The notes below the pieces were generated by a model. The model was given only the letters and a program-made list of their open reading frames with translations, did not search any database and was not told where the DNA came from. Shown here one piece after another: positions 4,674-46,054 of a stretch of 64,000 bases of DNA; position 1 is the stretch's first letter, and each line of letters starts with the position of its first letter. Position numbers and translations under genes: made by a program. The DNA comes from Pseudarthrobacter sp. BIM B-2242 (GTDB taxonomy: Bacteria > Actinomycetota > Actinomycetes > Actinomycetales > Micrococcaceae). The DNA lies in contig NZ_CP061721.1 in NCBI RefSeq assembly GCF_014764445.1, positions 62,001-126,000 on the forward strand. The letters run 5' to 3'.

Positions 4674-4967
4674 CTAACGCGGCTTGTACACGTCGGATCG
4701 GTGTTCGATGCGGTGGACATACAGGATGTGCTCTTCGACGTCGAGGGTGAACAACACCCTGTAGTCACCGCGGCGTGCGGTGCGCAGGCCGCGGAGTTCG
4801 TTCGTCAACGGTTTACTCAGCCGGTAAGGGTTATCGGCCAGGACGCCAGTGACGAATTCGACGATCGCTGCCGCTGCCTTCTCGGGCAACCGCCGAAAAC
4901 CCTTCAACGCGGGGCTGGTAACTTCGACCTTCCATGACGGATGACCGGCGGTCTGTGCATCAGTCAC
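4674..4967 (-). CDS. RelE/ParE-family toxin (copy 1)
   Basis: A 97-residue RelE/ParE-fold protein. RelE relatives cut mRNA on the ribosome, while ParE relatives block gyrase. Characteristic stretches are ALKGFRRLPEKAAAAIVEF in the first helices, then GLRTARRGDYRVLFTLD and HILYVHRIEHRSDVY, the RelE core that contributes the basic residues. It starts with GTG inside a GTGA overlap with the antitoxin stop, so it is translationally coupled. It differs from the 10.5-kb copy at five of the last 86 residues, and completely in the first ten or so. Confidence 0.9.
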   Translation of the reverse strand: MTDAQTAGHPSWKVEVTSPALKGFRRLPEKAAAAIVEFVTGVLADNPYRLSKPLTNELRGLRTARRGDYRVLFTLDVEEHILYVHRIEHRSDVYKPR

Positions 4968-5239
4968 CGCGGCGGCAGCCCGAATTCACGGCGGAGGTCA
5001 TCACCGCTGGTCGTGTTGCCTTCGGCGATGTCGCGCCGGGCCTGGTCCAGATCTTCGCGGATGCCAGGCTGGGAAAGCCAATGGATTGTTTCCTGCAGAG
5101 ACTCGAGGTCCGCCGCGGACATCAGCACTGCCGACGGGTGCCCGTGGCGGGTGATCTGGATGATCTCGTGGGTCTTGTCAGCTTCCTCCACGAGGGCGGA
5201 AAGCTTGTCCTTGGCTTCGCTGAGCGGTACCGTTCTCAT
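4964..5239 (-). CDS. Phd/YefM-family antitoxin (copy 1)
   Basis: A 91-residue antitoxin beginning MRTVPLSEAKDKLSALVEEA, the standard Phd/YefM DNA-binding N-terminus. HGHPSAVLMSAADLESLQET follows, and the C-terminal part (residues about 50-91) would wrap the toxin. It precedes the toxin with a 4-bp overlap. Phd/YefM proteins repress their own promoter, and a 7-1-7 palindrome lies just upstream of the start. Five residues differ from the copy at 10179. Confidence 0.92.
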   Translation of the reverse strand: MRTVPLSEAKDKLSALVEEADKTHEIIQITRHGHPSAVLMSAADLESLQETIHWLSQPGIREDLDQARRDIAEGNTTSGDDLRREFGLPPR

Positions 5240-10178: not shown

Positions 10179-10454
10179 ATGAGAACCGTACCGCTCAGCG
10201 AAGCCAAGGACAAACTCTCGGCCCTCGTGGAGGAAGCCGACAGGACCCACGAGATCATTCAGATCACGCGGCACGGGCACCCGTCAGCGGTGCTGATGTC
10301 CGCGGATGACCTGGAATCCTTGCAGGAAACGATCCACTGGCTGTCCCGGCCGGGCATCCGCGAAGACCTGGACCAGGCGCAGCGCGACATCGCCGAAGGC
10401 AACACGACCAGCGGTGCTGATCTGCGCCGCGAATTCGGACTGCCGCCGCGGTGA
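10179..10454 (+). CDS. Phd/YefM-family antitoxin (copy 2)
   Basis: 91 residues, nearly identical to the antitoxin at 4964-5239 (five substitutions, all outside the first 20 residues). It has the same MRTVPLSEAKDKLSALVEEA DNA-binding start and the same GTGA overlap with its toxin. Both genes are intact, so this copy can be active. It may cross-bind the toxin of copy 1. Confidence 0.92.
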   Translation: MRTVPLSEAKDKLSALVEEADRTHEIIQITRHGHPSAVLMSADDLESLQETIHWLSRPGIREDLDQAQRDIAEGNTTSGADLRREFGLPPR

Positions 10455-27919: not shown

Positions 27920-29698
<1,779 letters not shown>

Positions 29699-29828: not shown

Positions 29829-30707
29829 TTATTTCCGGCCGCTGAACTGGAGGACCTGCTTGAAGAGTCCTGAGTGGTCCAGTGCGCCGTCGCCCTGGTT
29901 GACGGTGGCGGCGACGAGCTGGGCGACGACGGCGCCGAGGGGGACGGCGACGTTGGCTTCGCGGGCGGCGGAGGTGACGATGCCCAGGTCCTTGTGGTGC
30001 AGGGCCAGGCGGAAGCCGGGGTCGAAGTTGCGGTCCAGCATCTTCTGGCCCTTCTGGTCGAGGACCTTGGAGCCGGCCAGGCCGCCGCCGAGGACCTTGA
30101 GCGCGGCGTCGGTGTCCACGCCGTAGGCCTCAAGGAAAGCGATGGCCTCGGCGAGGACCTCGATGTTGACGGCCACGATCAGCTGGTTGGCTGCCTTGAC
30201 GGTCTGGCCGGAGCCGGACGGACCCACGTGGACGATTGTCTTGCCGACGGCGTTCAGGATGTCCTGGGCTGCCTCGAAGTCTGCCTTTTCGCCGCCCACC
30301 ATGATGGACAGGACGGCGTCGATGGCGCCCTGCTCGCCGCCGGAAACCGGGGCGTCCAGCGGGCGGATACCGGCTTCGCGGGCGTCGTCGGCGAGCCTCT
30401 TGGCAACGTCAGGGCGGATGCTGGAGGCGTCGATCCAGAGGGTGCCCTTCTTCGCGTTGGCGAAGACGCCGTCCGTGCCGCTGACTACGCCGTCAACGTC
30501 GGGGGAGTCCGGCACCATGGTGATGACGACGTCGGCATCCTTAACTGCATCAGCAATGCTCGTGGCACCCTTGCCGCCTTCGGAGACGAGCTTGTCGATC
30601 TTGTCCTGGCTGCGGTTGAAGCCGGTGACGGTGTGCCCGGCCTTGACCAGGTTGATGGCCATGGGCAGGCCCATGATTCCGAGTCCGATAACTGCAACGT
30701 TGCTCAT
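29829..30707 (-). CDS. glxR: 2-hydroxy-3-oxopropionate (tartronate semialdehyde) reductase
   Basis: 292 residues of the beta-hydroxyacid dehydrogenase family. It reduces the Gcl product to D-glycerate with NAD(P)H. Seen are the nucleotide-binding GLGIMGLPMAINLVKAG at residues 7-23, MVPDSPDV, the substrate motif DAPVSGGEQGA, and SGSGQTVKAANQLIV with the catalytic Lys. The position between hyi and gcl supports tartronate semialdehyde over other 3-hydroxyacids. Confidence 0.94.
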   Translation of the reverse strand: MSNVAVIGLGIMGLPMAINLVKAGHTVTGFNRSQDKIDKLVSEGGKGATSIADAVKDADVVITMVPDSPDVDGVVSGTDGVFANAKKGTLWIDASSIRPDVAKRLADDAREAGIRPLDAPVSGGEQGAIDAVLSIMVGGEKADFEAAQDILNAVGKTIVHVGPSGSGQTVKAANQLIVAVNIEVLAEAIAFLEAYGVDTDAALKVLGGGLAGSKVLDQKGQKMLDRNFDPGFRLALHHKDLGIVTSAAREANVAVPLGAVVAQLVAATVNQGDGALDHSGLFKQVLQFSGRK

Positions 30708-30827: not shown

Positions 30828-31628
30828 TTAGCGGGAGGCGTGTTCGCGGATGGCCCAGCTGAACGCGGTCTCCTGCGGTTCCTTGTACTCGAGGCCGATG
30901 TAGCCTTCGTAACCGAGTTCGCGGCTGCGGGCGATCCATGCGCCGAGGGGAAGCTCGCCGGTGCCGGGGGCGCCGCGGCCGGGATTGTCGGCGATCTGGA
31001 TGTGGCCGAAGTCCTTGGCGTGGTTGTCGATGACGGCTGCGACGTCGTCGCCGTTGACTGCCAGGTGGTAGAAGTCGGCGAGGAGCTTGACGTTCTCTGC
31101 GCCGGAGGCTTCCTTGACGCGGGCAATCACTGTGAGGGCATCCGCTGCGGTGAGAAGCGGGTACCGGGGGGCGCCGCTGACAGGTTCGAGGAGGACGGTG
31201 CCTCCGATCCGGGCGACACCTTCAGCGGCTGCGGCCAGGTTCTTGACCGCCAGTTCGTCCTGCTCTTCGGGCGTGAAGTCGTCCTGCCTGTTGCCGTAGA
31301 GGGCGTTGAAAGCCTGGCAGCCCAGGCGCTCACCGATGCCGGCCACAACGTCGATGTTGTCCTTGAACTCGGAGCAGCGTCCCTTCCAGGAGACCAGGCC
31401 GCGGTCGCCCCCGGGCATGTTGCCGGCGTTGAAGTTCAGGCCGGTGAGCTGGACCCCTGCGTCCTTGATGGCGTTCTCGAATTTGGCGACCTGGGCGTCC
31501 GTGGGGACGGAGGTTTCGAAAGGCCACCAGAACTCGACCGCGTCGAAGCCTGCGGCCTTCGCGGCTGCGGGGCGCTCGAGCAGGGGGAGCTCCGTGAGGA
31601 GGATGGAGCAGTTCACTGTGTACGTCAT
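30828..31628 (-). CDS. hyi: Hydroxypyruvate isomerase
   Basis: 266 residues, an AP-endonuclease-2-like TIM barrel that interconverts hydroxypyruvate and tartronate semialdehyde. The start MTYTVNCSILLTELPLLERPAAAKAAGFDAVEFWWPF is typical of Hyi. Metal and active-site glutamates lie in VLLEPVSG near residue 145 and IGLEYKE near 248. LLADFYHLAVNGDD and IQIADNPGRGAPGTGEL complete the family pattern. Two IclR-type operator elements stand 60-95 bp upstream. Confidence 0.94.
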   Translation of the reverse strand: MTYTVNCSILLTELPLLERPAAAKAAGFDAVEFWWPFETSVPTDAQVAKFENAIKDAGVQLTGLNFNAGNMPGGDRGLVSWKGRCSEFKDNIDVVAGIGERLGCQAFNALYGNRQDDFTPEEQDELAVKNLAAAAEGVARIGGTVLLEPVSGAPRYPLLTAADALTVIARVKEASGAENVKLLADFYHLAVNGDDVAAVIDNHAKDFGHIQIADNPGRGAPGTGELPLGAWIARSRELGYEGYIGLEYKEPQETAFSWAIREHASR

Positions 31629-31688: not shown

Positions 31689-31724
31689 TTCCGCTTTATG
31701 GAATTTAGATTCTGCTTTATGAAA
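31689..31724. promoter_or_regulatory. Tandem IclR-type operator upstream of hyi
   Basis: TTCCGCTTTATGGAA (31689-31703) and TTCTGCTTTATGAAA (31710-31724) start exactly 21 bp apart. The same paired arrangement is found at the malic enzyme/iclR, uricase-divergent and uraD promoters. The local AT content is far above the surroundings. Confidence 0.8.
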
Positions 31725-31803
31725 AGTCTAGGGAATGGTGAAGCTGGAGTCAAGGGGCGGCGGCAGGGAGCGGAGAGGCCCCTCCCGGATTCACAACAAA
31801 CAA

Positions 31804-31835
31804 AAACGGACGGCCCCTGGCAGGGCCGCCCGTTT
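31804..31835 (-). terminator. Intrinsic terminator after the ureidoglycine aminohydrolase gene
   Basis: On the minus strand, 13-bp arms (AAACGGGCGGCCC with one mismatch) and a 6-base loop are followed by TTTTTG. It begins 13 bp after the stop and ends the malic enzyme to allE transcript. Confidence 0.8.
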
Positions 31836-31848
31836 CAGTTGGTCGCGA

Positions 31849-32661
31849 TCAGGTCAGGCGGACTTGCCGGTTCATGTCCTTATAAAGCAGGTAGCGGAAC
31901 TCGCCCGGGCCGCCGGCATAGCAGGCTTGCGGGCAAAAGGCACGGAGCCACATGAAGTCCCCGGCTTCCACTTCCACCCAGTCGTTGTTGAGCAGGTACA
32001 TGGCCTTGCCTTCAAGGACGTACAGGCCGTGCTCCATCACGTGGGTTTCCGGGAAAGGGATCACGCCGCCGGGCTGGAACGTCACGATGTTCACCTGCAT
32101 GTCGTGGGCGAGGTCGTTGGAGTCCGTGAAGCGGGTGGTCTTCCAGACGTCGTTCGTGTCCGGCATGGACGTCGGTTCCACGTCCTTTTCGTTGGTGACA
32201 AAGGATTTGGCTTCGTAGCCTTCCAGGCGTTCGTAGGCTTTGCGGATCCAATGGAATGAGACCACGTCATCGGACACGTTCTCCAGGCCCCACTCCGAGC
32301 CGGCAGCCAGGTAGGCGTAGCCGCCTTCCTCCAGCTGGTGCAGTTCTCCGTCGAGGGCGAGGTTGACTGTGCCGCGGGTAACGAAAATGACGCCTTCCAC
32401 CCCGGCCTCGAACTCGGCCTTGGGGGCGCCTCCGCCCGGGCCGATCTCGACAATGAGCTGCGAGAAGGTGGTGGCAAAGCCGGAGATGGGGCGGGCGATG
32501 ATCCAGGAGCGGGTGTTGTTGAAGCCGGGCAGGTTGGACGTGACGATATCCGTCATGACGCCCTTGGGGATGACGGTGTACGCCTCCGTGACGATGGCGC
32601 GCTCGGTGGTGAGGTGGGTCTGGGGCGGCAGGCCGCCCTCAGGGGAGTAGTACTTTCCCAT
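31849..32661 (-). CDS. allE: (S)-ureidoglycine aminohydrolase
   Basis: 270 residues with two cupin barrels. It releases ammonia from (S)-ureidoglycine to give (S)-ureidoglycolate; Mn binds in the C-terminal cupin. Motifs: GKYYSPEGGLPPQT at the start, IVEIGPGGGAPKAEFEAGVEGVIFV in the first cupin, NIVTFQPGGVIPFPETHVMEHGLYVLEGKAMYLLNNDW in the second (His and Glu ligands), and MWLRAFCPQACYAGG with YLLYKDMNR at the end, all typical of the bacterial YlbA/AllE enzyme. It is the last gene of the malic enzyme-aceB transcript. Confidence 0.93.
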   Translation of the reverse strand: MGKYYSPEGGLPPQTHLTTERAIVTEAYTVIPKGVMTDIVTSNLPGFNNTRSWIIARPISGFATTFSQLIVEIGPGGGAPKAEFEAGVEGVIFVTRGTVNLALDGELHQLEEGGYAYLAAGSEWGLENVSDDVVSFHWIRKAYERLEGYEAKSFVTNEKDVEPTSMPDTNDVWKTTRFTDSNDLAHDMQVNIVTFQPGGVIPFPETHVMEHGLYVLEGKAMYLLNNDWVEVEAGDFMWLRAFCPQACYAGGPGEFRYLLYKDMNRQVRLT

Positions 32662-32676
32662 TAGGATGATCCTTAC

Positions 32677-33954
32677 TTAAGAGTTGGAAGGGGCGGCGAG
32701 CCGCGGGTGGGCCAGTGCGGTCAGGTGCGGGACGCCGACGCCGGCAAGCGCCTGGACTTCGTCCACGCCCACGGCGCCGCACTGGAACCCGCGCAGCACG
32801 AAGGCTGCCAGCGCGCGGGCCGTGGCGGGTTCGTCCATCACGCCGCCGTCGGTCTGCTCCACGTAGTTCCGCAGCCGGGCCGCGGCAGCCGGGAGTCCTT
32901 CGCGGTAGAACGCATACGTGGCGGCGAAGCGGCTGGGCAGCTGGGCGGGGTGGAGGTCCCAGCCCTGGTAGTAGCCGCGCTCCAGCGACCGGCGGACCAG
33001 GCGGCCGTGCAGCGCCCAGGCGTTTTCGACGTTGTCACCCACGGGGATGATGTTGGTGGAACCGTCAGAGAGCCGGATGCCCGTTCCCGCGACAGCGAGC
33101 TGCATTACTTCCTTGGCGAAGTCGGCCACGGGGTGTTCCATGGACTGGTATTCGGCGGAGATCTGCAGCGATGCGGAGTAGTCGTAGGTGCCGTAGTGCA
33201 GGGCGCTGATGCGTCCCGGGACCAGGTGCGGCAGCTGCGCTACCGGGGAGGTGCCGTCCGGCCCCAGGATGAGCTGCGGGGTTTCCACCTGGACCTCGAA
33301 GCGGAGCCGGCCGGCAGGGAGGGAGTGGACTTCCTCAAGCCGGGAGACCGCATAATCCATGGCCTGGACCTGGGCCGCCGTGGTGACTTTGGGCAGGGTC
33401 AGGACCAGGCCCTCGGGAAGTTCGCCGGCCGCTGCGAGCCCGGAGACGAAGAGGTCCAGCGTCCGGAGCCCCCGGGCACGGGTGGCAGCTTCGAAGCACT
33501 TGAACCGTATGCCGATGAACGGGGGAGCGGTGCCGGCCGCGACTGCGGCGGCCACGGCGGACGCGGCGGCAACCGCGGCGGCGTCCTCGGCATCATCGCC
33601 TCTGTCCCCGAAGCCGTCCTCGAAGTCCAGGCGGAGGTCCTCGATCGGTTCGCTTTCCAGCTTTTCCCGGACCCGGGACGCAACCGCCCCGGCGAGGTGG
33701 GCGTCCTGGCCCAGCAACGCGCACAGGCGTTCCAGCCCGCCGTGAGCTGCCGCCGTCGTCAGCGCCTGGGAACCCCAATCGGCGGCGAAGGAGGGCGTGA
33801 ACCGGTCGGCGGGGACGTAGACGGTGTGGACGGGCTGGCGTGAGCCGTCATCGTCCGGATAGTTCCGCTCCAGCAGTTGGTCCGTGGCGGCCAGCCGGGC
33901 ATTGATGCCTGCGATATCCGCCGCGGTGAGCGACGGGGTGTAAGAGGCAGCCAT
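32677..33954 (-). CDS. DUF6986 protein, HpcH/CitE-like aldolase fold
   Basis: 425 residues. The layout resembles the HpcH/HpaI/CitE TIM barrel: DLRLDFEDGFGDRGDD near residue 108, IGIRFKCFEAATRARGLRTLDLF, LVLTLPKVTT, RLRFEVQVETPQLIL and GRISALHYGTYDYSASLQIS. Known relatives are malyl-CoA and citryl-CoA lyases. It is packed between aceB (3-bp gap) and allE (15-bp gap), so a role in glyoxylate chemistry is likely. Its actual reaction is not known to me. Confidence 0.8.
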   Translation of the reverse strand: MAASYTPSLTAADIAGINARLAATDQLLERNYPDDDGSRQPVHTVYVPADRFTPSFAADWGSQALTTAAAHGGLERLCALLGQDAHLAGAVASRVREKLESEPIEDLRLDFEDGFGDRGDDAEDAAAVAAASAVAAAVAAGTAPPFIGIRFKCFEAATRARGLRTLDLFVSGLAAAGELPEGLVLTLPKVTTAAQVQAMDYAVSRLEEVHSLPAGRLRFEVQVETPQLILGPDGTSPVAQLPHLVPGRISALHYGTYDYSASLQISAEYQSMEHPVADFAKEVMQLAVAGTGIRLSDGSTNIIPVGDNVENAWALHGRLVRRSLERGYYQGWDLHPAQLPSRFAATYAFYREGLPAAAARLRNYVEQTDGGVMDEPATARALAAFVLRGFQCGAVGVDEVQALAGVGVPHLTALAHPRLAAPSNS

Positions 33955-33957
33955 GGC

Positions 33958-35571
33958 TCAGCCCACCAGTTCGTAGGCCGGGGTGGTGAGGAAGTCCGTG
34001 TAGTCCTCGGAGAGGCAGATTTCCGCTATCAGGTCGCTGGCCGGCCGGTAGTAGCGGGTGAAAGCTTCGTCGCCGGCTTCGGTGCGGAGCCGCTCGGTTT
34101 CCTCGGCCAGGATTCGCTCCACGAGTTCCCGGGTGACGGTGTTGCCGGTGTCCGCCAGGAGGGACTTGTTCCGGATCTGCTGCCAGACCTGGGACCGGGA
34201 GATCTCGGCCGTGGCGGCGTCTTCCATCAGGTTGTGGATGGCCACGGCGCCGTTCCCGGAGAGCCAGACGCCGGTGTAGGCGACGGCAACATAGAGGTTT
34301 AGGCGGAGCCCGGCCTCCGTGATCTGGCCGTCGGCCGAGGCGATGTCCAGCAGCTGGTCAGCCGTGACACTGACCTCCGGGCGCTGCTTGTCCAGCTGGT
34401 TGGGACGGCCGCCGTTTTCCGGATCGCCAAGCACGGCGTCGAACACCTCCTGGCAGGTGGACACCAGGTCCGGGTGCGCCACCCAGGAACCGTCGAACCC
34501 GTCGTTGGCTTCACGGGTCTTGTCCGCGCGGACCTTGGCGAACGCTGCCTCGGTTACCTCGGGCTGTTTGCGGTTGGGGATGAACGCCGCCATGCCGCCC
34601 ATGGCGAAGGCGCCGCGCTTGTGGCAGGTCTTGACCAGCAGTTCGGTATAGGCGCGCATGAAGGGTGCGGTCATGGCCACGGAGGCGCGGTCCGGGAGGA
34701 CAAACTGTTCGCCTGCGTCGCGGAAGTACTTGATGATGCTGAAGAGGTAGTCCCAGCGGCCGGCGTTGAGTCCGGAGGCGTGGTCCCGGAGTTCGTAGAG
34801 GATTTCGTCCATCTCGAACGCGGCGGGGATGGTTTCGATCAGGACGGTGGCCCGGACCGTGCCCTGCGGGATGCCGAGGTAGTCCTGGGCGAAGACGAAG
34901 ACCTCGTTCCAGAGGCGGGCCTCGAGGTGGCTCTCCATCTTGGGCAGGTAGTAATAGGGGCCGTGGCCGTTGAGAATCAGTTGTTTGGCCACGTGGAAGA
35001 AGTGCAGGCCGAAGTCCACCAGCGCACCCACGGCGGGTTCGCCGTCGATCAGCAGGTGTTTCTCGGGCAGGTGCCAGCCGCGCGGTCGGGCCACCACCAC
35101 GGCCAGCGGCGCATCGGTGCGCAGGCTGTATTCCTTGCCTTCGGCGGAGCTGTAGCTGAGGGTGCCCCGGGCGGCGTCGCGGAGGTTCAGGATGGAGTCG
35201 ATGACGTTTCCCCAGGTTGGCGTGCTGGCGTCCTCGAGGTCGGCCAGCCACACCTTGGCGCCGGAGTTCAGGGCGTTGATGGCCATTTTCGCCGGGGAGG
35301 CGGGGCCGGTCATTTCCACCCGGCGGTCCTGCAAAGGTGCCGGCGCCGCTGCAACTTTCCAGTCGCCGTCGCGCACGTCCCGGGTTTCAGGCAGGAAGTC
35401 CAGCTTGCCGGTTTCTGCGACCTTCTGGCGCTTGGCGCCGCGGGCAGTGAGCGTCTCGTTGCGGGTGCCGGCGAAGCGGAGGTGAAGTTCTTCGATGAAT
35501 GCCAGCGCCTCGGGGGTGAGGATTTCCTCAGCCCGGTCGATCGGCCGGGGGTCTGTGACGGTGATGGCCAT
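33958..35571 (-). CDS. aceB: Malate synthase A
   Basis: 537 residues from ATG 35571, after AAAGGACCAG. It condenses glyoxylate with acetyl-CoA to malate. Family signs include [70 protein letters not shown] (metal Glu and catalytic region), [29 protein letters not shown] and [11 protein letters not shown]. This is the A form, without the large G-form insertion. No isocitrate lyase is nearby, so here it uses glyoxylate made from ureides. Confidence 0.95.
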
Positions 35572-35609
35572 TTCTGGTCCTTTCGTTGGCTGCGGGTCAG
35601 GCGGTGTCA

Positions 35610-37058
35610 TCAGAGTGCGGCGGCGTAGACCGCGTCGCCCGTCGGGGCAGCATCATGCGGTGCGGCGGCGTTTGCTGCATGTCCTGCGGCTTGTGCCACC
35701 GCAGTTGCGACGTCGGCCGCAACGTGCGGATCGAAGACGCTGGGAATGATGTAGCTGGCGTTGAGCTCATCGTCTGCCACCCGGTTGGCGATTGCCTCGG
35801 CCGCGGCCACCAGCATTTCGGGGGTGATGTCCGAGGCTCCGGCATCCAGGAGTCCGCGGAAGAATCCCGGGAAGGCCAGAACGTTGTTGATCTGGTTGGG
35901 GAAATCACTGCGACCGGTAGCTACGACTGCAGCGTGGCGTGCCGCGACGGCGGGGTCGATCTCCGGGGTGGGGTTGGCCATGGCGAACACGATGGAGTCC
36001 TTGGCCATGGAGGCAACGTGTTCCTCACCGATCACGTGCGGTGCGCTCACGCCGATGAACACGTCCGCGCCCTTGAGGGCTTCGTGCAGCGTGCCGGCGA
36101 AGCCTTCCTCGTTGGTGTTGGCAGCGATCCAGGTTCGGTGCTCGTCGGCATATTCCTGGCCGGCGTGAATGGCCCCGGAACGGCCGGCGGCCACAATATG
36201 GCGGGCGCCCTGGGCTTTGAGGAGCTGGATGATGGCGGAGCCGGCGGCACCGACGCCTGACACGACGATTCTCACGTCCTCAAGCTTTTTGTCAACGACG
36301 CGCAGGGCGTTGACCAGGGCGGCGAGGGTGACGATCGCGGTGCCGTGCTGGTCGTCGTGGAAGACGGGGATGTCCAGTTCTTCGCGGAGGCGGTTCTCGA
36401 TCTCGAAACAGCGGGGTGCGGCGATGTCCTCAAGGTTCACGCCGCCGTAGACAGGAGCGAGAGCTTTGACGATTTTGATGATTTCCTCGGTGTCCTGGGT
36501 GTCCAGGCAGACGGGCCAGGCATCGACATTGGCGAACTGCTTGAACAGTGCCGCTTTGCCTTCCATGACGGGCAGGGCTGCGGCCGGGCCGATGTTGCCC
36601 AGGCCCAGGACGGCCGAACCGTCCGTGACCACAGCGATGGTGTTGCGCTTGACGGTCAGGTTGCGGGCCAATGCGGGATCCTCGGCAATAGCCATGCATA
36701 CGCGGGCGACCCCCGGGGTGTAGGCGCGGGAAAGATCGTCACGGTTGCGCAGGGCGACCTTGGGGACAACTTCAAGCTTGCCGCCGAGGTGCATCAAAAA
36801 GGTGCGGTCCGAGACGTGCTGGACGGAAACGCCCTCGAGGGCGTTGAGTGCGTCCTTGACCCGCGCGGCGTGGGCGTCATCAGTGGTGTTGCAGGTGACG
36901 TCGACAACCAGGGTCTCGTGGTGGGACTCGGTGACGTCCAATGCCGTGATGGCTGCGCCTGCCGCTCCGACTGCCGCGGCCAGCTCACTGGTGGCCGAGA
37001 AGCTGGACGGCGCTTCCACGCGCAGGGTAATCGAATTTCCGGGGCTGGGGTTCGCCAT
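35610..37058 (-). CDS. NAD(P)-dependent malic enzyme with N-terminal ACT domain
   Basis: 482 residues. It decarboxylates malate to pyruvate. An ACT-like regulatory domain fills about residues 5-80 ([23 protein letters not shown]). The malic enzyme domain follows: [68 protein letters not shown] (metal Asp), then the NAD motif [16 protein letters not shown] and [10 protein letters not shown]. First gene of the transcript to aceB, DUF6986 and allE. The ACT domain suggests amino-acid or purine-related allostery (inference). Confidence 0.94.
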
Positions 37059-37109
37059 TGAAGAGTCCTCTGTTCTGGCCCATGGATGGCCGGACTACTG
37101 GAAAGATAT

Positions 37110-37145
37110 TTTCGTATTATGGATATTATTATCTACTTTGTGGAA
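37110..37145. promoter_or_regulatory. Tandem IclR-type operator between malic enzyme and iclR
   Basis: TTTCGTATTATGGAT (37110-37124) and ATCTACTTTGTGGAA (37131-37145), 21 bp apart, in the 208-bp divergent promoter region. It can serve both the catabolic transcript and autoregulation of iclR. Confidence 0.78.
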
Positions 37146-37266
37146 TTACAAGCCTCGAAACCGAGTCCCGCCGGCCTATCTCCGATGCGGTATCGTGAGA
37201 CGTCTAGGGCATTCTTTTCACGATGCGGATAAGATTTGTCGGAAACCGAGTCGCAGGAGCAGTCCC

Positions 37267-38022
37267 ATGGCTGAGAAATCCCCCGGAGGCGTTCAGTCTG
37301 TTGAGCGCGTCTTTGAACTGTTGGAACTGATTACTGATGCAGGCGGGGACGTCACGCTCAGTGAACTCTCGTCCTCGACCGACCTTCCCCTGCCCACCAT
37401 CCACCGGCTCCTGCGCACCCTGGTCACTCTTGGCTATATCCGTCAGCTGCCCAACCGCAGGTACGCCTTGGGCCCCCGGTTGATCAGGCTCGGCGAAGGC
37501 GCTAACAAGCAGCTGGGTGCCGTGGCCCGGCCGCAGCTCAAATCCCTCGTGGATCACTTGGGGGAAACGGCCAACATGGCCGTGCTGGATTCGGACATGG
37601 TGATCTACGTGGCTCAAGTTCCTTCCTTGCATTCCATGCGGATGTTCACCGAAGTTGGACGCCGCGCCCATACCCACGACACCGGCGTGGGTAAGGCCAT
37701 CCTGGCCCAGCTTGATGACGCGGCGGTCCGCGGGATCGTCGCGCGTACCGGAATGCCCACGCCGACGTCCAAGAGCATTGGCGACATCGAATCCCTCCTG
37801 GCGGACTTGGACCGGATCCGGGAACGCGGGTACGCCATTGACGAGGAGGAACAGGAGTTGGGCGTCCGGTGTTTTGCCATGGCCGTACCCAACGCCCCCA
37901 CCCCCGCCGCGATCTCGGTCTCCGGACCTGTTTCGCGCGTTGACCGGTCCTTCGGCGACCGCGCCGTCCCTATGCTTCGGGAAGCCGCGCAGGCGATTTC
38001 GGACGAGCTCAACCGCGCCTGA
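37267..38022 (+). CDS. IclR-family regulator of the purine/glyoxylate genes
   Basis: 251 residues from ATG 37267. A winged HTH at about residues 8-70 (VQSVERVFELLELITDAGGDVTLSELSS, PLPTIHRLLRTLVTLGYIRQLPNRRYALG) precedes the IclR ligand domain (LGETANMAVLDSDMVIYVAQVPS, GRRAHTHDTGVGKAILA, RGYAIDEEEQELGVRCFAMAVPN). It resembles AllR-type regulators, which sense glyoxylate or allantoin. The divergent position and the operator pairs point to control of the surrounding genes. Ligand and sign of regulation are inferred, not seen. Confidence 0.92.
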   Translation: MAEKSPGGVQSVERVFELLELITDAGGDVTLSELSSSTDLPLPTIHRLLRTLVTLGYIRQLPNRRYALGPRLIRLGEGANKQLGAVARPQLKSLVDHLGETANMAVLDSDMVIYVAQVPSLHSMRMFTEVGRRAHTHDTGVGKAILAQLDDAAVRGIVARTGMPTPTSKSIGDIESLLADLDRIRERGYAIDEEEQELGVRCFAMAVPNAPTPAAISVSGPVSRVDRSFGDRAVPMLREAAQAISDELNRA

Positions 38023-38059
38023 TCCTGTCTCTGACGTGGTTCGGCTTGCAGCGCTACGG

Positions 38060-38094
38060 ACGGCGGCCCTTCTTTCGGGAGGGCCGCCGCCGTC
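38060..38094. terminator. Bidirectional terminator between iclR and the purine permease
   Basis: GGCGGCCCT (38063-38071) and AGGGCCGCC (38081-38089) form a strong hairpin between the convergent genes. Confidence 0.7.
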
Positions 38095-38107
38095 GTTAAC
38101 TGTGGTT

Positions 38108-39616
38108 CTAGTGTTCAGGTGCCTTCCCGGATGACTGGACCGCAACTTCCTTGCCGTCGCAGTCGATGAGCTTGCCGCCTTCATAACGGTCGCCGTCGGC
38201 CAGGCACTTGAGGTCCTCTTCCCGGACCACCCGGCCGGTGCCGGCAACAAACACGGATTGGTTCTCTGAGTTGCCGGCCTTTAGGTGGTTGAACAGCAGG
38301 TTAAGCAGGATGGCCATGACCGCTGCCGAGCTGATGCCGGAGTGGAAGATGGTGCCGAACCAGGTGGGGAACTTGTCGTAAAAGGTGGGTGCGGCGATCG
38401 GGATCATGCCAAAGCCGATCGAAGCGGCCACGATGATCAGGTTCATGTTGTTGCGGTATTCCACCTTAGCCAGGGTCCTGATGCCGCTGGCCGCGACGGT
38501 ACCGAACAGGACGATCCCCGCGCCACCAAGAACGGCGGTCGGAACGGCTGCGACCACGCGGCCCAGGACGGGCAGCAAGCCCAGCAGCACCAGGATCACA
38601 CCGCCGGCCGCCACCACGTAGCGGCTTTTGATTTTAGTGACCGCCACCAGGCCGACGTTCTGCGCGAACGCGCTCTGGGTGAACGAGCCGAAAATCGGTG
38701 CGATCAGGCTGGAGCCCATGTCGGCGCGCAGCCCGGCTGCGATCCGCTTGGAGTCCGTCCGTGTGCCAACGATCTCTCCGACGGCGAGAATGTCCGCCAT
38801 GGTTTCGGTCAGGATCACCAGCACCACAATCACCATGGAGATGATGGCTGCGATTTCGAACGTTGGCGCACCCAGGTGGAACGGCGTGGGAAATGCCACG
38901 ATAGGCCCGTTGCCCACCTTGGAAAAGTCCGCCATGCCAGCCAGCACCGCCACGATGGTGCCTACCACCATGGCCAGAAGTATGGACAAGCGGGAGATCG
39001 TGGCACTGCCGACCTTGCTCAGGAGGAGGACGAGCGCGAGGGTGATGGCCGCCAGCCCGATATTGGCCATGCTTCCGTAGTCCTCTGCTTTCCGGTTTCC
39101 ACCCATGGCCCAGTTGGCTGCCACAGGCATCAGCGTCAGCCCGATGGTGGTGATAACAGTGCCGGTGACTACGGGAGGGAAGAAGCGGACGATCTTGGAG
39201 AAGACCGGCGCGATCAGCAGGCCGATTGCTGCCGAAACCATCACCGCTCCGAAGACCGAGGGCAGGCCGCCACCCCCGCTGACGATGGCCACCATTGTGG
39301 CGACGCTGGCGAAGGAGACGCCTTGGACCAGCGGCAGTTGCGAGCCGAAGAACGGAACGCCGATGGTCTGCAGCAGGGTGGCAAGGCCACCCATGAAGAG
39401 TGCCGCCGCGATGAGTACTCCAATGTCTGCGGGGGAGAGGCCGGCCGCCTGGCCGACGATCAGCGGGACGGCAATGATCCCGCCGTACATGGTGAGGACG
39501 TGCTGGAAGCCGTAGGCAAAGCTGCTGCCGATGGAAAGGCGCTGGTCTTCCGGACGATCCGCAACAGGGCGTTTGGTGCGCGGAGTGGCGGCTTTAAGGG
39601 GTTTGTTGATGTTCAT
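38108..39616 (-). CDS. NCS2-family purine (urate/xanthine) permease
   Basis: 502 residues with about 14 membrane segments of the UapA/UraA fold. It imports xanthine or urate with protons. The first membrane segment contains FAYGFQHVLTMYGGIIAVPLIVG, in which QH is the family's conserved TM1 pair. The TM8 signature reads VILTETMADILAVGEIVGT, with the conserved Glu, and FTQSAFAQNVGLVAVTKIKSRYVVAAGG is the NCS2 TM10 motif. The neighbouring uricase gene makes urate or xanthine the likely substrate. The start region carries a 19-bp duplication (see findings). Confidence 0.92.
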   Translation of the reverse strand: MNINKPLKAATPRTKRPVADRPEDQRLSIGSSFAYGFQHVLTMYGGIIAVPLIVGQAAGLSPADIGVLIAAALFMGGLATLLQTIGVPFFGSQLPLVQGVSFASVATMVAIVSGGGGLPSVFGAVMVSAAIGLLIAPVFSKIVRFFPPVVTGTVITTIGLTLMPVAANWAMGGNRKAEDYGSMANIGLAAITLALVLLLSKVGSATISRLSILLAMVVGTIVAVLAGMADFSKVGNGPIVAFPTPFHLGAPTFEIAAIISMVIVVLVILTETMADILAVGEIVGTRTDSKRIAAGLRADMGSSLIAPIFGSFTQSAFAQNVGLVAVTKIKSRYVVAAGGVILVLLGLLPVLGRVVAAVPTAVLGGAGIVLFGTVAASGIRTLAKVEYRNNMNLIIVAASIGFGMIPIAAPTFYDKFPTWFGTIFHSGISSAAVMAILLNLLFNHLKAGNSENQSVFVAGTGRVVREEDLKCLADGDRYEGGKLIDCDGKEVAVQSSGKAPEH

Positions 39617-39642
39617 GGCAGACTTTCTGGTTCATGGCAGAC
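39611..39642. repeat. Direct repeat over the permease start codon
   Basis: GTTCATGGCAGAC occurs at 39611-39623 and 39630-39642 (19-bp period), so the ATG context is duplicated. The upstream copy opens a 13-codon reading frame that overlaps the true start. Confidence 0.7.
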
Positions 39643-39678
39643 GTCTTCGTCTGTCTAACGTGGTCTGGCTGTGGATTC

Positions 39679-39732
39679 GACGGGCTCAATCACTTGCTCA
39701 GCGACGGCCGGTGGCCTGTGATTGAGCCCGTC
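39679..39732 (-). terminator. Hairpin after the uricase gene
   Basis: GACGGGCTCAATCAC and its exact complement (15-bp arms, 24-base loop) lie 14 bp after the uricase stop, between it and the permease. The loop can fold further. Confidence 0.65.
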
Positions 39733-39746
39733 GGAGTACCGATGAT

Positions 39747-40655
39747 TTAGCAGAATCCGGTGATGCCGGACCAGGCGATGTCAGCGGGGGTGGCGTCGTC
39801 ACGCTGGACTGTGGCCTCAATCAGGCCGTAGGGACGGTCTGCTGCGAAGAAGACCTCGTTGGGGTTGTCGAGGCCAAACGGCGAAAGATCCACGAGGAAG
39901 TGGTGTTTGTTCGGCATCGAGAACTTGATCTCGTCAATGTCGCTGTGGGCTTCCAGGACCTTCGTGCCCATGTCGAACAGGGTCTGCTGCAGGGCGTGGG
40001 AGTAGTTCTCCGTGAATCCTTCGAGCAGGAGCGCTTTGACGTCGTCGTAGCTCTTGTTGAAGTCCACGGTATTGAAATCGGTTCCGGTCTTGAAGCGCCA
40101 GCGGGCGGAAACGTCGGTGGCCAGGATACGGTCCGTGGTTTCGGCGAGAGTGGTGTATTTGTCCTTCGGGTAGCCCACGAAGCCCGACTCCGTGGACTTC
40201 AGGACGGTCAGGTCCCTCAGGCCGGAGATCAGGTGTGCGTCGGCGCCGTCCCGGACCAGGACCGCCGTGCGGACTTCCTGGCCGTTGCGCACGAATGAGT
40301 GGTTGTGCCCCTCACCGTGCGCCTGGATGCGGTCCCAGCTGTAGGACTCGGCTTCCCAACGGCCTCCCGTGACCCAGGCGAAGCCGGACGTGAAATGTTC
40401 GCCCAGGCGCAGGAGGAAGGCCTCGGGAGAGCCGACGCCGTCACGGGCAAAGGCATAGATGGTGTTTTTCTGGGTGTCGGTTGGCACCACATGTCCGTTA
40501 TCGCCCTCCAGGTGGGCGGCCGCGAAGTCTCCGCGCAGCTGCGAGGTGACGTTCAGGTCTTCAATCTCATGGCGGTCCGTGTCCCGCGTGATCTTTACAA
40601 CCCGGACTTCGGCCTTGCCGTACTGGTTGTGGCCGAGGATGATTTTGCTGCTCAT
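39747..40655 (-). CDS. pucL: Urate oxidase (cofactor-free uricase)
   Basis: 302 residues from ATG 40655 (MSSKIILGHNQYGKAEVRVVKI). It oxidises urate to 5-hydroxyisourate with O2, needing no cofactor. Both halves of the T-fold tandem are present. Motifs: IEDLNVTSQLRGDF, TDTQKNTIYAFARDG (catalytic Thr-Lys region), HFTSGFAWVTGGRWEAESY, VLKSTESGFVGYPKDKYTTLAETTDRILATDV and PNKHHFLVDLSPFGLDNPNEVFFAADRPYG. It ends GITGFC, not in a peroxisomal tag, as expected for a bacterium. It strongly resembles Arthrobacter uricase. The product goes to the HIU hydrolase at 45152. Confidence 0.96.
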   Translation of the reverse strand: MSSKIILGHNQYGKAEVRVVKITRDTDRHEIEDLNVTSQLRGDFAAAHLEGDNGHVVPTDTQKNTIYAFARDGVGSPEAFLLRLGEHFTSGFAWVTGGRWEAESYSWDRIQAHGEGHNHSFVRNGQEVRTAVLVRDGADAHLISGLRDLTVLKSTESGFVGYPKDKYTTLAETTDRILATDVSARWRFKTGTDFNTVDFNKSYDDVKALLLEGFTENYSHALQQTLFDMGTKVLEAHSDIDEIKFSMPNKHHFLVDLSPFGLDNPNEVFFAADRPYGLIEATVQRDDATPADIAWSGITGFC

Positions 40656-40744
40656 GGTCAGATTCCCAACTTCAGGTACGTGGCACTGCGTCCACATAGA
40701 AAGTAAGCGCGCGTTACCCGCACGTTTCTTGTACCGTCGGCCCA

Positions 40745-40860
40745 TAAAAAAGAGCCGACATCGATAGATGTCAGCTCATTACGACCCTGCCTGCTGCTCC
40801 CAGGTTACGTGGCTTTCGGCCACGAATTGACAATTAGCGTAGCCCAGCCCGGCCGTGTTG
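40745..40860 (-). ncRNA. Candidate structured leader RNA with intrinsic terminator upstream of uricase
   Basis: Reading the minus strand: a hairpin CGTGGC-CGAAA-GCCACG (40808-40824), then CCTGGGAGCAGCAGG and AGGGTCGTAATGAGC, then the hairpin GAGCTGACATC-TATC-GATGTCGGCTC (one mismatch) followed directly by six T (40746-40751). This has the layout of a riboswitch or attenuator, with the terminator 97 bp before the uricase start. It matches no riboswitch class I know. It could instead be an independent small RNA. Confidence 0.5.
40752..40777 (-). terminator. Intrinsic terminator upstream of uricase
   Basis: 11-bp arms with one mismatch (GAGCTGACATC/GATGTCGGCTC), loop TATC, and a TTTTTT tract on the minus strand. 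No complete gene lies upstream in that direction, so it must end a leader or small RNA. Confidence 0.8.
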
Positions 40861-40864
40861 TACA

Positions 40865-40890
40865 TCACAAACTGAAAAATCGGTTTGTGA
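40865..40890. promoter_or_regulatory. Inverted repeat TCACAAACTG-AAAAAT-CGGTTTGTGA
   Basis: 10-bp arms with one mismatch around an AT-rich 6-base spacer. A GTGTTGTACATCAC near-palindrome overlaps its left side. Probably a repressor site for the uricase direction, distinct from the IclR elements. Confidence 0.5.
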
Positions 40891-40939
40891 CTGCCGGCTC
40901 CCCGGATCCGTTGACGAGCACGGGTGGGACATCTATGCT

Positions 40940-40975
40940 TTTCGTATAGTAAAACTTTACTTCCACAATATGGAA
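40940..40975. promoter_or_regulatory. Tandem IclR-type operator between uricase and the 61-residue protein
   Basis: TTTCGTATAGTAAAA (40940-40954) and TTCCACAATATGGAA (40961-40975, a near-perfect palindrome) start 21 bp apart, as at the three other catabolic promoters. Confidence 0.8.
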
Positions 40976-41004
40976 TCCAAATGAACCATCCAGAGGAGGA
41001 TCAG

Positions 41005-41190
41005 ATGTGCCCGCAGGACAAGACGCCGGTGATACCGGCACAAGCTGAAACCCTCGTAGCCCAGGAGTTCTACTTCCCCCTGGGCAGCGGAACGGATCCT
41101 GACTTTTATGTGCCCACAGACGCGGAGCGTCTTCGGCGGGGCGGCGGGTTCTCCCGATGGCTCCGAGCGCTGCCCGTTTTCAATCGGTAG
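41005..41190 (+). CDS. Small hypothetical protein divergent from uricase
   Basis: 61 residues from ATG 41005, preceded by a perfect AGGAGG five bases away, one of the best ribosome-binding sites in the window. Sequence features: MCPQDKTPVIPAQAE, then LVAQEFYFPLGSGTDPDFYVPTDAERLRRGGG and a basic, aromatic end (FSRWLRALPVFNR). There is no membrane segment or known domain. The operator pair directly upstream puts it in the purine/glyoxylate regulon. It is followed by a strong terminator, so it is a stand-alone transcript. Confidence 0.75.
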   Translation: MCPQDKTPVIPAQAETLVAQEFYFPLGSGTDPDFYVPTDAERLRRGGGFSRWLRALPVFNR

Positions 41191-41227
41191 CGTCCCAGGG
41201 CTGCAGGATTGCAGTTCGTAAGCAGGT

Positions 41228-41262
41228 GAAGTCGGCGGCACTGTTCCAGTGCCGCCGACTTC
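41228..41262 (+). terminator. Strong hairpin terminator after the 61-residue protein
   Basis: GAAGTCGGCGGCACT, loop GTTCC, then the exact complement: perfect 15-bp arms 38 bp after the stop. Confidence 0.75.
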
Positions 41263-41394
41263 GACAATTCCGGACAAGTGCCCCGGAGCCCCGACCCCCG
41301 GGAACTCCCAGCCGTGCTCCTCCGTGAGCGAATCATCCGTGGGCCTTGGTGCGGCTACCGTCGCCATAACCGCTCGTCAATCATGAAGTGGCAA

Positions 41395-41428
41395 GTTGGC
41401 AGCCGCACTAACCAGCTCTGCTGCCAAC
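41395..41428 (-). terminator. Hairpin after aceE
   Basis: GTTGGCAGC and GCTGCCAAC, perfect 9-bp arms about 20 bp after the aceE stop on the minus strand. Confidence 0.5.
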
Positions 41429-41447
41429 CTGCCTCCAGTGTTACCGG

Positions 41448-44189
<2,742 letters not shown>

Positions 44190-44229
44190 GTCCAAGCCTC
44201 GTTTCATCATTGAATATTCGAGCGGTCTT

Positions 44230-44265
44230 TTTCGCAATGCGAGAAAGATTTCTTGTCTTACGAGA
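44230..44265. promoter_or_regulatory. Tandem palindromes in the aceE promoter
   Basis: TTTCGCAATGCGAGA (44230-44244) and TCTTGTCTTACGAGA (44251-44265) also start 21 bp apart but have a CGAGA half-site instead of TGRAA. They lie 41-76 bp upstream of the GTG start. Probably the site of a related regulator. Confidence 0.6.
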
Positions 44266-44544
44266 ATAGACGAGGGGTTGCCGCCGGCAAAATTGCGGAG
44301 AGCCAGGCTCGGCCAGGCCAAGCACGTCGAGATGTGGATACCCTGTCGACGCAGCCTCAAAAGTGGCGTTGGCAAGCCGTATCCGGTATGCCGGAACCAT
44401 CCTAAAGTCATGTCTCCGCAGGTTCCTGCCGCTTTATCAACGGATTGTGACTGACCGGACGATCCTTTGACTGACTCCCCGGTTTTGTTGCCCGTAGGCT
44501 TCTCGCCGGCGGCGCAATGGCTGCCCCACTCCCAAGGAGGTCCA
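44266..44544. other. Divergent intergenic region between aceE and the SDR remnant
   Basis: About 280 bp with no credible gene. It should contain the aceE promoter at its left and the old SDR promoter at its right. Nothing else stands out. Confidence 0.4.
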
Positions 44545-45040
44545 GTGCTAAATACCCAAAAATTGGACCTAAAAGTTGCTGTTGTCACCGACGCCGGAGG
44601 CGACGCTGGCTGTGAACCTGACCGGAGCCATGCTCTGTGCTGCTGCCGCAGTCCGGGCGATGAAGGCGCAGTCGCCCCAGGGCGGTCGGATCATCAACAA
44701 CGGATCTATCGCGGCGCATTCGCCGCGGCCCCGGAGCGTTGCCTACACCGTCACCAAACACGCCCTGACCGGACTGACCAAGAGCATCGACCTGGACGGG
44801 CGAGGCTTCGGCGTCACCTGCGGCCAGATCGACATCGGCAACACCGCCACCGAATTAATGGACCACATCGGTGTCGGGTCCGGGGCAGTCCAAGCCGACG
44901 GTAGCCGCAAGGTGGAGCCTACCTTCCCTGTGGAGGACGCGGCGCGCGCGGTCCTGCTAATGGCCCTGATGCCGGCGTCCGCCTCCGTTGGTTCCCTAAT
45001 CCTCACGGCGGCAGGAATGCCATTCATAGGGCGTGGGTAG
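44545..45040 (+). pseudogene. Short-chain dehydrogenase/reductase with internal deletion
   Basis: AAGGAGGT precedes a GTG at 44545 that reads [21 protein letters not shown], the first strand of an SDR Rossmann fold. About 15 residues later the normal sequence resumes in a different frame, at the position before [21 protein letters not shown], and runs to the end ([31 protein letters not shown] with catalytic Ser, Tyr and Lys; [16 protein letters not shown]). About 90-95 residues, including most of the NAD site and the NNAG motif, are missing, so it cannot be functional. Confidence 0.85.
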
Positions 45041-45151
45041 CCCTTCGCGCGGCTGGCAGGCCAGCCCCAAGACCAGATTCCAGCTTTCCTGCAGCCGCAT
45101 GAACATGCCCGTGCTTCTCAGGAGCTGTAGCCACCTTGGGGCGGGCACCTC

Positions 45152-45493
45152 TTAGCTCCCGCGGTAGCTCGAAAACGAAAATGGGCTCAACAGCAGTGGG
45201 ATGTGGTAATGCGGTTCATTTCTGTCCACAGTGAAGGTGAGCACGACCTCGGGGAAAAAGGCTGGAGTGTTCCGTTCTGCGAAGTACTCTGCTGTGGTGA
45301 ATTTCAGCCGGTAGGTTCCGGAGGGCAGGAATTCCGGCCCGATTTCCTTTACCCGCCCGTCGGAATCCGTCTGTGCAACGGCGATCTCGGACCACGAACC
45401 ACTAACCAGAGCGTGCAGCCCGACGGGCACTCCCACCGCCGGCTTTCCTGTAGCAGTGTCCAGAATGTGGGTAGTTACATGTGAAGTTGTCAC
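45152..45493 (-). CDS. hiuH: 5-hydroxyisourate hydrolase
   Basis: 113 residues, a transthyretin-related protein. It hydrolyses 5-hydroxyisourate, the uricase product, to OHCU. Characteristic are the N-terminal VTTHILDTATGKPAVGVPV (His), the central GRVKEIGPEFLPSGTYRLKF (Arg region), HYHIPLLLSPFSFSSYRGS, and the C-terminal YRGS signature that separates it from animal transthyretin. GTG 45493 overlaps the uraD stop by 4 bp. Confidence 0.96.
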   Translation of the reverse strand: MTTSHVTTHILDTATGKPAVGVPVGLHALVSGSWSEIAVAQTDSDGRVKEIGPEFLPSGTYRLKFTTAEYFAERNTPAFFPEVVLTFTVDRNEPHYHIPLLLSPFSFSSYRGS

Positions 45494-45987
45494 TCGCTGA
45501 TCATTCCCTCAAGCCTGTGGACTGCGATCTCACGCAACTGTTGCTGGACGACGCGCACTTCCTCGTGCGGCGTGTTGGAGATCCTCACCTGGAGGGCCTC
45601 CAAAACTTCTTCCTTGCTGCGACCGGCTGCACGGATCAAAAAGACCTGTCCGAACTTCTCTTCGTAGCTCCGGTTTCCTTCGGAGATTGCGGTCATCACT
45701 GCAGCGGGAGCAGCGCCGAGAGCCTCTTGTTCATCCCGTGAGAACTGAGCCTCGGAACTATTGCCTTGGGCACGTTCGCCTATCCGCGGGTGGTGAGCCA
45801 GTGCGGATTCAACTTCGTCTGCGGTGAACGGGGATGCGGCGCGACGGGCGAGGAGGAGCAGGTCGTGCCTTGATGAAAATGGCCGAGCGTCGGCGATCTC
45901 CTCGATCCACCGGGGGATATCAAGACAGGGCCGCAGCGCGGCGACAATGTCTGAGCGGTCGGACTCGTTGAACTCTTCGAGAAACAT
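45490..45987 (-). CDS. uraD: OHCU decarboxylase
   Basis: 165 residues from ATG 45987, with AAAGGA six bases upstream (a GTG directly before it is less well spaced). It decarboxylates OHCU to (S)-allantoin, the last step of urate breakdown. Motifs: FNESDRSDIVAALRPCLDIPRWIEEI, AHHPRIGER with the catalytic His, FGQVFLIRAAGRSKEEVLEALQVRISNTPHEE, and the C-terminal VQQQLREIAVHRLEGMI. Coupled to hiuH. A paired IclR-type operator lies 30-65 bp upstream. Confidence 0.96.
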   Translation of the reverse strand: MFLEEFNESDRSDIVAALRPCLDIPRWIEEIADARPFSSRHDLLLLARRAASPFTADEVESALAHHPRIGERAQGNSSEAQFSRDEQEALGAAPAAVMTAISEGNRSYEEKFGQVFLIRAAGRSKEEVLEALQVRISNTPHEEVRVVQQQLREIAVHRLEGMISE

Positions 45988-46018
45988 CACAATCCTTTGC
46001 TTAGTGATCCATGACGAA

Positions 46019-46054
46019 TTTCATCATGTGAAATAATAATTCCATCATGTAGTA
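46019..46054. promoter_or_regulatory. Tandem IclR-type operator upstream of uraD-hiuH
   Basis: TTTCATCATGTGAAA (46019-46033) and TTCCATCATGTAGTA (46040-46054) start 21 bp apart. The first is a perfect palindrome in its outer five bases. Confidence 0.78.

Follow-up and report, generated by a model that had tools for sequence, protein, structure and literature searches.

Probable IclR-type operator pairs and a candidate purine riboswitch before uricase in a purine-to-glyoxylate gene cluster of Pseudarthrobacter

Introduction

How is urate breakdown tied to glyoxylate disposal when the genes for both lie side by side on a bacterial chromosome? The question is raised by a 64,000-nucleotide stretch of Pseudarthrobacter sp. 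BIM B-2242 (NZ_CP061721.1, positions 62,001 to 126,000 of the forward strand; the window hereafter, its first letter being position 1), in which purine and glyoxylate genes flank iclR, the gene of an IclR-family regulator. In Streptomyces coelicolor, AllR is an IclR-type repressor of the allantoin genes and of hyi, and is released by allantoate and glyoxylate. The original prediction for the window was that four promoters of the cluster carry paired 15-bp near-palindromes to which the local IclR protein binds. The analysis presented here points to IclR-type operators and, before uricase, to a leader RNA that would work as an ON switch; we regard this joint explanation as probable, though well short of certain.

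Operator pairs in the window

The four pairs, together with a fifth pair and a single box that matrix scoring added, are as follows.

31689..31724: tandem operator pair preceding hyi, ~60 bp 5′ of the hyi start (palindrome score and relatives)
37110..37145: tandem operator pair in the intergenic region of the malic enzyme gene and iclR, about 51 bp from the malic enzyme start (palindrome score and relatives)
40940..40975: tandem operator pair flanked by the uricase leader (minus strand) and a short conserved open reading frame (plus strand), ~285 bp from the uricase start
46019..46054: tandem operator pair preceding uraD-hiuH, ~31 bp 5′ of the uraD start
44230..44265: fifth tandem pair (44230/44251), about 20 bp 5′ of the aceE start, score 18.3, spacing 21
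37216..37230: one palindromic box without a partner, ~36 bp 5′ of iclR, score 13.0

All eight predicted 15-bp elements are present, at 31689/31710, 37110/37131, 40940/40961 and 46019/46040, and in each of the four pairs the second element starts 21 bp after the first. The AT-rich islands in which they were said to lie are equally plain, the 36-bp pairs having 25–31% G+C against 64% for the window. The proposed consensus TTYCR-N5-TGRAA holds less strictly: by eye it is exact in three of the eight half-sites and one or two positions off in the other five. The 40940 pair does lie between uricase and a plus-strand open reading frame, as the label 'uricase-divergent' had it, but a leader RNA occupies part of the ~285 bp that separate it from the uricase start.

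Measured against the ideal palindrome TTCCA-N5-TGGAA, the four pairs have 4, 5, 4 and 4 mismatches in coordinate order and are the top four at spacing 21 in the 64 kb, the next candidate having 6. When a matrix built from three pairs was used to recover the fourth, the held-out pairs scored 36.3, 31.7, 41.0 and 30.7 in the same order, and untrained positions of the window never outscored them. The genome background, 20 stretches of 20 kb taken from the same chromosome outside the window (399,300 bp, ~8% of 4.78 Mb), gave a top score of 11.5 at spacing 21, and nothing in it reached 15. Pairs scattered at unrelated genes, which would have spoken against a regulon, are thus not found in this ~8% of the genome. 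The pair before aceE had escaped the original prediction. The box at 37216 is probably an autoregulatory site of iclR, boxes near this position scoring in several relatives too (e.g. L069, L077, L079 and L085). The genome's own xdhA locus has no operator pair.

Operators in relatives

A search of 120 genomes of the family with the regulator found an orthologue at E ~1e-78 or better in 73 (counted by hand). Forty loci around iclR orthologues, picked to span 53–92% identity, were scanned with the window matrix at a threshold of 15 and spacings of 15–39, keeping the best of overlapping pairs. These loci were picked for carrying the regulator and so speak to conservation, not to an independent link. 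Spacing 21 gave 97 pairs, while every other spacing gave at most 3. None of the 97 falls inside a tblastn match to a reference gene, reference genes being the only ones mapped in these loci.

The pairs cluster before hyi, malic enzyme/iclR, uraD, uox and aceE, again the opposite of a scatter at unrelated genes. When a pair may lie up to 450 bp upstream of a reference gene, pairs precede hyi in 17/17 relatives, the malic enzyme gene in 28/29, uraD in 8/12, uox in 7/20 and aceE in 4/6. For iclR, which shares its intergenic region with the malic enzyme gene, the count is 35/40, or 36/40 if any pair of at least 15 is accepted. Pairs are rare upstream of aceB (4/34), pucK (1/18), allB (1/6) and citE (1/31), and there are none upstream of hiuH (0/12), ughY (0/31), glxR (0/13), gcl (0/8) and glxK (0/5), as expected because these last genes are operon-internal.

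A partial control is provided by 27 of the 47 family genomes that have no IclR orthologue, picked for that lack. In 26 of the 27 there is no uricase match and in 26 of the 27 no hyi match (E 1e-40); the two exceptions have no pair, their best scores at spacing 21 being 2.3 and 1.4.

The IclR regulator

37267..38022, plus strand: iclR, encoding the IclR-family regulator P0001 (251 residues; Pfam HTH_IclR and IclR_C)

P0001 has both domains of its family, PF09339 at 64.5 bits (cut-off 22) and PF01614 at 136.5 bits (cut-off 24), yet falls under every NCBIfam cut-off: BhcR, the best match, at 192/350, IclR at 149.5/380, AllR at 114.7/406, and PcaR/PcaU and KdgR likewise. It appears to resemble AllR, IclR and BhcR in working and is not filed as any of them. 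Its effector domain aligns with that of E. coli IclR over 148–149 residues in alignments to the Protein Data Bank (PDB; E. coli AllR and IclR, 1tf1 and 2o99). The glyoxylate site comprises Gly160, Ala161, Asp212, Ser239 and Ser241 in IclR numbering (PMC11323563, Table 1). P0001 has Gly, Val, Asp, Ser and Ser there, four of the five being identical to IclR in the alignment read by eye, so that relative to IclR the ligand-site residues are largely kept. Residue 161 is Val in P0001, Ala in IclR and Ile in BhcR. Since the site is largely kept, glyoxylate or a close relative would be the likeliest effector.

The original prediction of IclR control has gained support from the conserved pairs beside iclR, the IclR domains of the protein and the lack of the pathway where the regulator is lacking, and the local IclR is well supported as the regulator at the paired boxes. 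At uricase the same interpretation, sound as to the type of operator, proves incomplete, as an RNA element lies downstream of the operator.

A conserved leader RNA before uricase

40744..40833, minus strand: type A leader RNA of uricase, with P1 hairpin, core, terminator and U tract
40808-40824, minus strand: P1 hairpin of the leader
40772-40804, minus strand: core of the leader
40752-40777, minus strand: terminator of the leader

The leader lies between the 40940 pair and uricase and consists of the P1 hairpin, then ACCTGGGAGCAGCAGGCAGGGTCGTAATGAGCTG, then a terminator with its U tract; the terminator overlaps the core and shares its 5′ arm with it. In seven of eight aligned rows the leader is conserved far above its flanks, the eighth (L081) being without the element. 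The window copy folds at -32.8 kcal/mol with a z score of -3.27, and 28 of the 33 core columns are invariant in 107 distinct type A copies (at most 6 substitutions).

In 27 aligned copies, two-sided changes occur in all five P1 pairs. They amount to 27 cells, all in P1, against 5.2 ± 2.3 in shuffles, none of 500 of which reach as high, and at most 2 in slid versions; 13 of 500 shuffles likewise reach five pairs changed on both sides. For the terminator there are 18 such cells (0/500 shuffles as high, slid versions at most 3). An alignment of types A and B by MAFFT was out of register and is left out of these counts. The element is thus a conserved, structured 5′ leader RNA with covariation, as is asked of a riboswitch, the covariation being in P1 and the terminator only. 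A P2 stem, CCTG/CAGG, and a pseudoknot, CAGC/GCTG, are proposed from conservation and geometry. One pseudoknot variant, TAGC/GCTG (a U-G change), is found in L125, which stands outside the 107 type A and 46 type B copies compared. The segment GAGCTG, the 5′ arm of the terminator, is kept in type B elements that lack a terminator (51 of 56), and this argues for a role in the sensor as well as in the terminator. We read the leader as a candidate purine riboswitch.

A coding origin was considered and rejected. The frame TWEQQAGS through the core has a stop in place of the Trp codon in L069 and L080, and most relatives differ from the window by an insertion or deletion in P1 that puts the upstream frame out of phase.

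Distribution and subtypes of the leader

Rfam 15 has no match in the window at gathering scores, and scans by E value gave only weak hits near 41098-41437, judged to be chance. In the loci of five relatives the Rfam 15 scan gave two tRNAs plus a weak hit that overlaps one of these tRNAs, nothing else. A covariance model of the leader matches 93/395 genomes of the family (E 0.01) and, by row count, 71/77 of the window's genus; three of the 93 (G142, G166 and G311) have no core and are judged false. In the genome of the window only the copy at uricase is convincing; two weaker matches, at 19.6 and 15.7 bits, were judged false.

In an order-wide search 31/396 genomes match, 13 in family f1 and 18 outside it. 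Accepted outside f1 are G406, G453, G570 and G657 (f13) and G485 and G750 (f19); G675 (f13) is doubtful, with a broken P2, and among the other 11 the 10 inspected (G630 left out) have no core and are mostly bare terminators. A class-wide search with a model of a second subtype, type B, is less biased than the loci fetched partly for their neighbouring purine genes. It matched 15/394 genomes, with five clear type B cores and ten weak matches without a clear core. Three of the five (L328, L330 and L331) precede a deaminase gene by tblastn, L330 by a short match only, and the rest are the L068 and L071 elements already counted.

The type A sequence is CCTGRGAGCAGCRGGCAGGGTYGTAATGAGCTG and the type B sequence CCTGGATCAGCAGACAGG-N(3-6)-ACTGAGCTGG. 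The type A DNA pattern finds at least 118 stretches; its first gap was set at 4–6, so type B was missed by it. Among the matches listed are 80 named loci, 73 from Micrococcaceae and 7 from unrelated taxa (L188, L192, L193, L232, L242, L257 and L263), the latter judged to be chance. The gene downstream is uox in 50 of these 80, a small protein in 14, BMP in 2 and pbuX in 2; the 12 without a gene comprise the 7 chance hits, 4 end-truncated loci and L204, which is unassigned. The PbuX-type xanthine permease scores 505.8 bits (cut-off 414.15) and the PnrA/Bmp lipoprotein 129.3 (cut-off 24.1), while an XdhA-like protein that follows type A in one genome scores 405, below its cut-off of 467. The small proteins have ~77–100 residues, and the one tested has no Pfam or NCBIfam match. 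Members of this family (L120, L123, L126, L137-L144 and L146) have the motif RRKRTRHPR..GDRV.FAEG...GTGVVD...IIWVWTDEGQGRRMFLQG. Uricase with a type A leader is also seen in L118 and L119, from genomes having at least two model matches each; the L118 copy probably sits on a plasmid.

Type B precedes 8-oxoguanine deaminase in 55/55 distinct elements, as judged by tblastn with one query (694.1 bits, cut-off 532), although for one of them the projected start is odd. A search of the window's own genome for an 8-oxoguanine deaminase, run without a positive control, gave none. A terminator, its arm overlapping the core, follows 103/127 distinct type A elements. An operator pair of at least 15 lies within 420 nucleotides upstream of 80/120 type A and 33/52 type B elements, close relatives included, and the RNA and the operator are therefore often in series.

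Proposed mechanism and alternative explanations

In the mechanism that we propose, two IclR dimers would bind the same face of the DNA with two helical turns between them, and would repress (most likely) or dually control hyi-glxR-gcl, malic enzyme-aceB, iclR, uraD-hiuH, the uricase region and the duplicated aceE, in response to glyoxylate or a nearby breakdown product. The uricase transcript would start at or near the operator and then pass through the leader, with its P1, near-invariant core and intrinsic terminator. As the 5′ arm of the terminator, GAGCTG, is part of the core, a purine near urate (urate, xanthine or 8-oxoguanine) may stabilize an H-type pseudoknot, CCUG/CAGG plus CAGC/GCUG, that removes this arm, and transcription would continue, so that the leader would be an ON switch. 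Expression of uricase would on this view depend on two signals together, that of the end product through IclR and that of the substrate side through the RNA, the pathway's lower end being reported by IclR and its upper end by the RNA. We lean, slightly, towards a new riboswitch class of the Micrococcales, a small pseudoknot aptamer for purine oxidation products with two subtypes, A, ahead of the genes for uricase, xanthine permease, xanthine dehydrogenase and nucleoside uptake, for urate or xanthine, and B, ahead of 8-oxoguanine deaminase, for 8-oxoguanine or a related purine, which in series with IclR would form an AND gate at uricase.

An RNA-binding protein, antiterminator or attenuator, may bind the leader in place of a metabolite. 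The near-invariant core would suit a protein site as well as an aptamer, and it overlaps the terminator arm. However, dual hexaloop hairpins of the ANTAR type are not visible, and a split into two subtypes by downstream gene is more typical of aptamer variants; we consider a protein ligand unlikely. It is quite improbable that the leader is a small RNA, or a plain terminator or attenuator with no sensor at all. An intrinsic terminator does end the leader before uox, and bare terminators account for many false hits of the model outside the family, but copies assigned to a gene precede members of one gene group, in the sense orientation, and the core persists without a terminator in the 51 type B elements mentioned above.

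As for the operators, the paired sites could belong to another IclR paralogue or to an unlinked factor. There are 17 further IclR-type matches in the genome, and one of their loci, L013, has a 21-bp-spaced pair scoring 17.0 at 1459-1494, just 5′ of an IclR-type gene (G000:C1:2546622-2547311) whose own operator it perhaps is. The motif type is therefore not unique to P0001, and related regulators may use similar boxes. Yet 16 of the 17 paralogue loci stay below 15 (next best 14.3), a pair of at least 15 lies beside the iclR orthologue in 36/40 loci, whose orthologues are 53–92% identical, and the pathway goes missing together with the orthologue, so that we give another regulator little credence. 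Mere resemblance by chance among AT-rich promoters, suggested by the low-GC intergenic DNA in which all the pairs sit, is dismissed on the mismatch ranking, the leave-one-out recovery, the empty 399,300-bp background and the 97 pairs of a single spacing conserved in relatives.

Several observations weigh against the proposed series of IclR operator and RNA ON switch. The covariation alignment was fitted to the proposed structure and is biased towards it, and the further pair types of the terminator are not above shuffles (368/500 as high). The P2 stem and the pseudoknot are identical in 107/107 type A copies, the type B pseudoknot is identical in 46/46 and the type B P2 stem in 45/46; moreover, in the fold of minimum energy the partner of CCUG is the first CAGG and not the second. 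Only 5/56 type B elements have a terminator, so the mechanism misses most of them, and the 14 small-protein genes after type A have no known link to purines. On the operator side, 4/40 loci have no pair before iclR (L053, L060, L064 and L065), the aceE pair (18.3) hardly exceeds that of the L013 paralogue (17.0), and uox is without a pair in 13/20 relatives, partly since uox there is operon-internal; in L345, for example, uricase directly follows hiuH and the promoter may sit further upstream.

Genes around the operators

Gene names were read from the translations without a family search, except for uricase (TIGR03383) and the IclR domains.

27920..29698, minus strand: gcl, glyoxylate carboligase, named from sequence
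29829..30707, minus strand: glxR, tartronate semialdehyde reductase, named from sequence
30828..31628, minus strand: hyi, hydroxypyruvate isomerase, named from sequence
33958..35610, minus strand: aceB, malate synthase, named from sequence
35610..37058, minus strand: malic enzyme, named from sequence
38108..39616, minus strand: pucK, NCS2 purine permease, named from sequence
39747..40655, minus strand: uox, uricase (TIGR03383, 368.6 bits, cut-off 168.4)
41005..41190, plus strand: short conserved open reading frame of 61 residues, divergent from uricase, with similar frames in relatives
41448..44210, minus strand: aceE, pyruvate dehydrogenase E1, named from sequence
45152..45493, minus strand: hiuH, named from sequence
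45490..45987, minus strand: uraD, named from sequence

The minus strand reads allB, glxK, gcl, glxR, hyi, a candidate ureidoglycine aminohydrolase of the cupin type, a CitE-like lyase, aceB and malic enzyme, followed, beyond the divergent iclR, by pucK, uricase, aceE, hiuH and uraD. The aceE gene inside the purine cluster has a second copy in the genome that is 91% identical (G000:C1:2392519-2395269). The locus of that second copy has no operator pair (best 0.5), whereas the cluster copy has one.

The open reading frame at 41005-41190 has a conserved core, EFYFPLGSGTDPDFYVP...RWLRALPVF, and frames of 55–69 residues like it occupy the same place in L068, L071, L073, L077 and L080; a simple pick of open reading frames did not recover one in L069 and L070. 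Its probable product is a small, so far undescribed protein whose gene would be controlled from the 40940 operator. Elsewhere in the window, two near-identical genes of 91 residues lie on opposite strands ~5 kb apart, at 4964-5239 (minus) and 10179-10454 (plus); we take them to be antitoxin-like, of the Phd/YefM type.

Relation to known systems

Tandem palindromes of the type WTTYCRYW3RYGRAAW, with 18–22 nucleotides between centres, have been described for the IclR family (Suvorova and Gelfand 2021, PMC8222616). The present sites are like them in half-site, TTYCR-N5-YGRAA, and in their 21-nucleotide period, which lies within 18–22; they differ in marking a purine/glyoxylate regulon with uricase, uraD-hiuH and aceE in Micrococcaceae. 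The operators would constitute a new regulon of an already described type. The E. coli IclR site has the opposite half-site order, TGGAAATNATTTCCA (PMC8222616). In E. coli, AllR and IclR exert glyoxylate-linked control over gcl-type and malate synthase genes (PMC11323563). P0001 is like BhcR of Paracoccus denitrificans, its best NCBIfam match, in that residue 161 is not Ala, and BhcR is glyoxylate-responsive; BhcR differs in controlling the beta-hydroxyaspartate cycle (PMC11323563), and the 192 bits of P0001 lie below its cut-off of 350.

Among RNAs, the NMT1 or xanthine riboswitch has a similar context of purine oxidation, including amidohydrolases like 8-hydroxyguanine deaminase, but it is found in Proteobacteria, is an OFF switch that likely acts on translation and has a P1-J1-P2a-J2 fold (PMC7373994, PMC8266621). 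Variants of the guanine riboswitch for xanthine/guanine (PMC9295807) also sense xanthine-like purines but belong to the guanine riboswitch class. Neither NMT1 nor the guanine class matched the leader element in the Rfam 15 scans, and the consulted portions of the open-licence literature, including PMC11109978 and PMC8632094, contain no report of this leader RNA. The nearest published RNA in these sources appears to be the proteobacterial xanthine/urate riboswitch, from which the leader differs in sequence, in taxon and, on the present reading, in the direction of control.

Implications

The operator set yields a purine-to-glyoxylate regulon that can be checked, and one of its members, a duplicated gene for pyruvate dehydrogenase E1, is unexpected. 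If the proposed function of the leader is true, a separate actinobacterial class that stands before uricase, a xanthine dehydrogenase gene and 8-oxoguanine deaminase would be a testable urate- or 8-oxoguanine-responsive RNA and a useful sensor. It would also provide the first functional lead for the family of small proteins without a family match.

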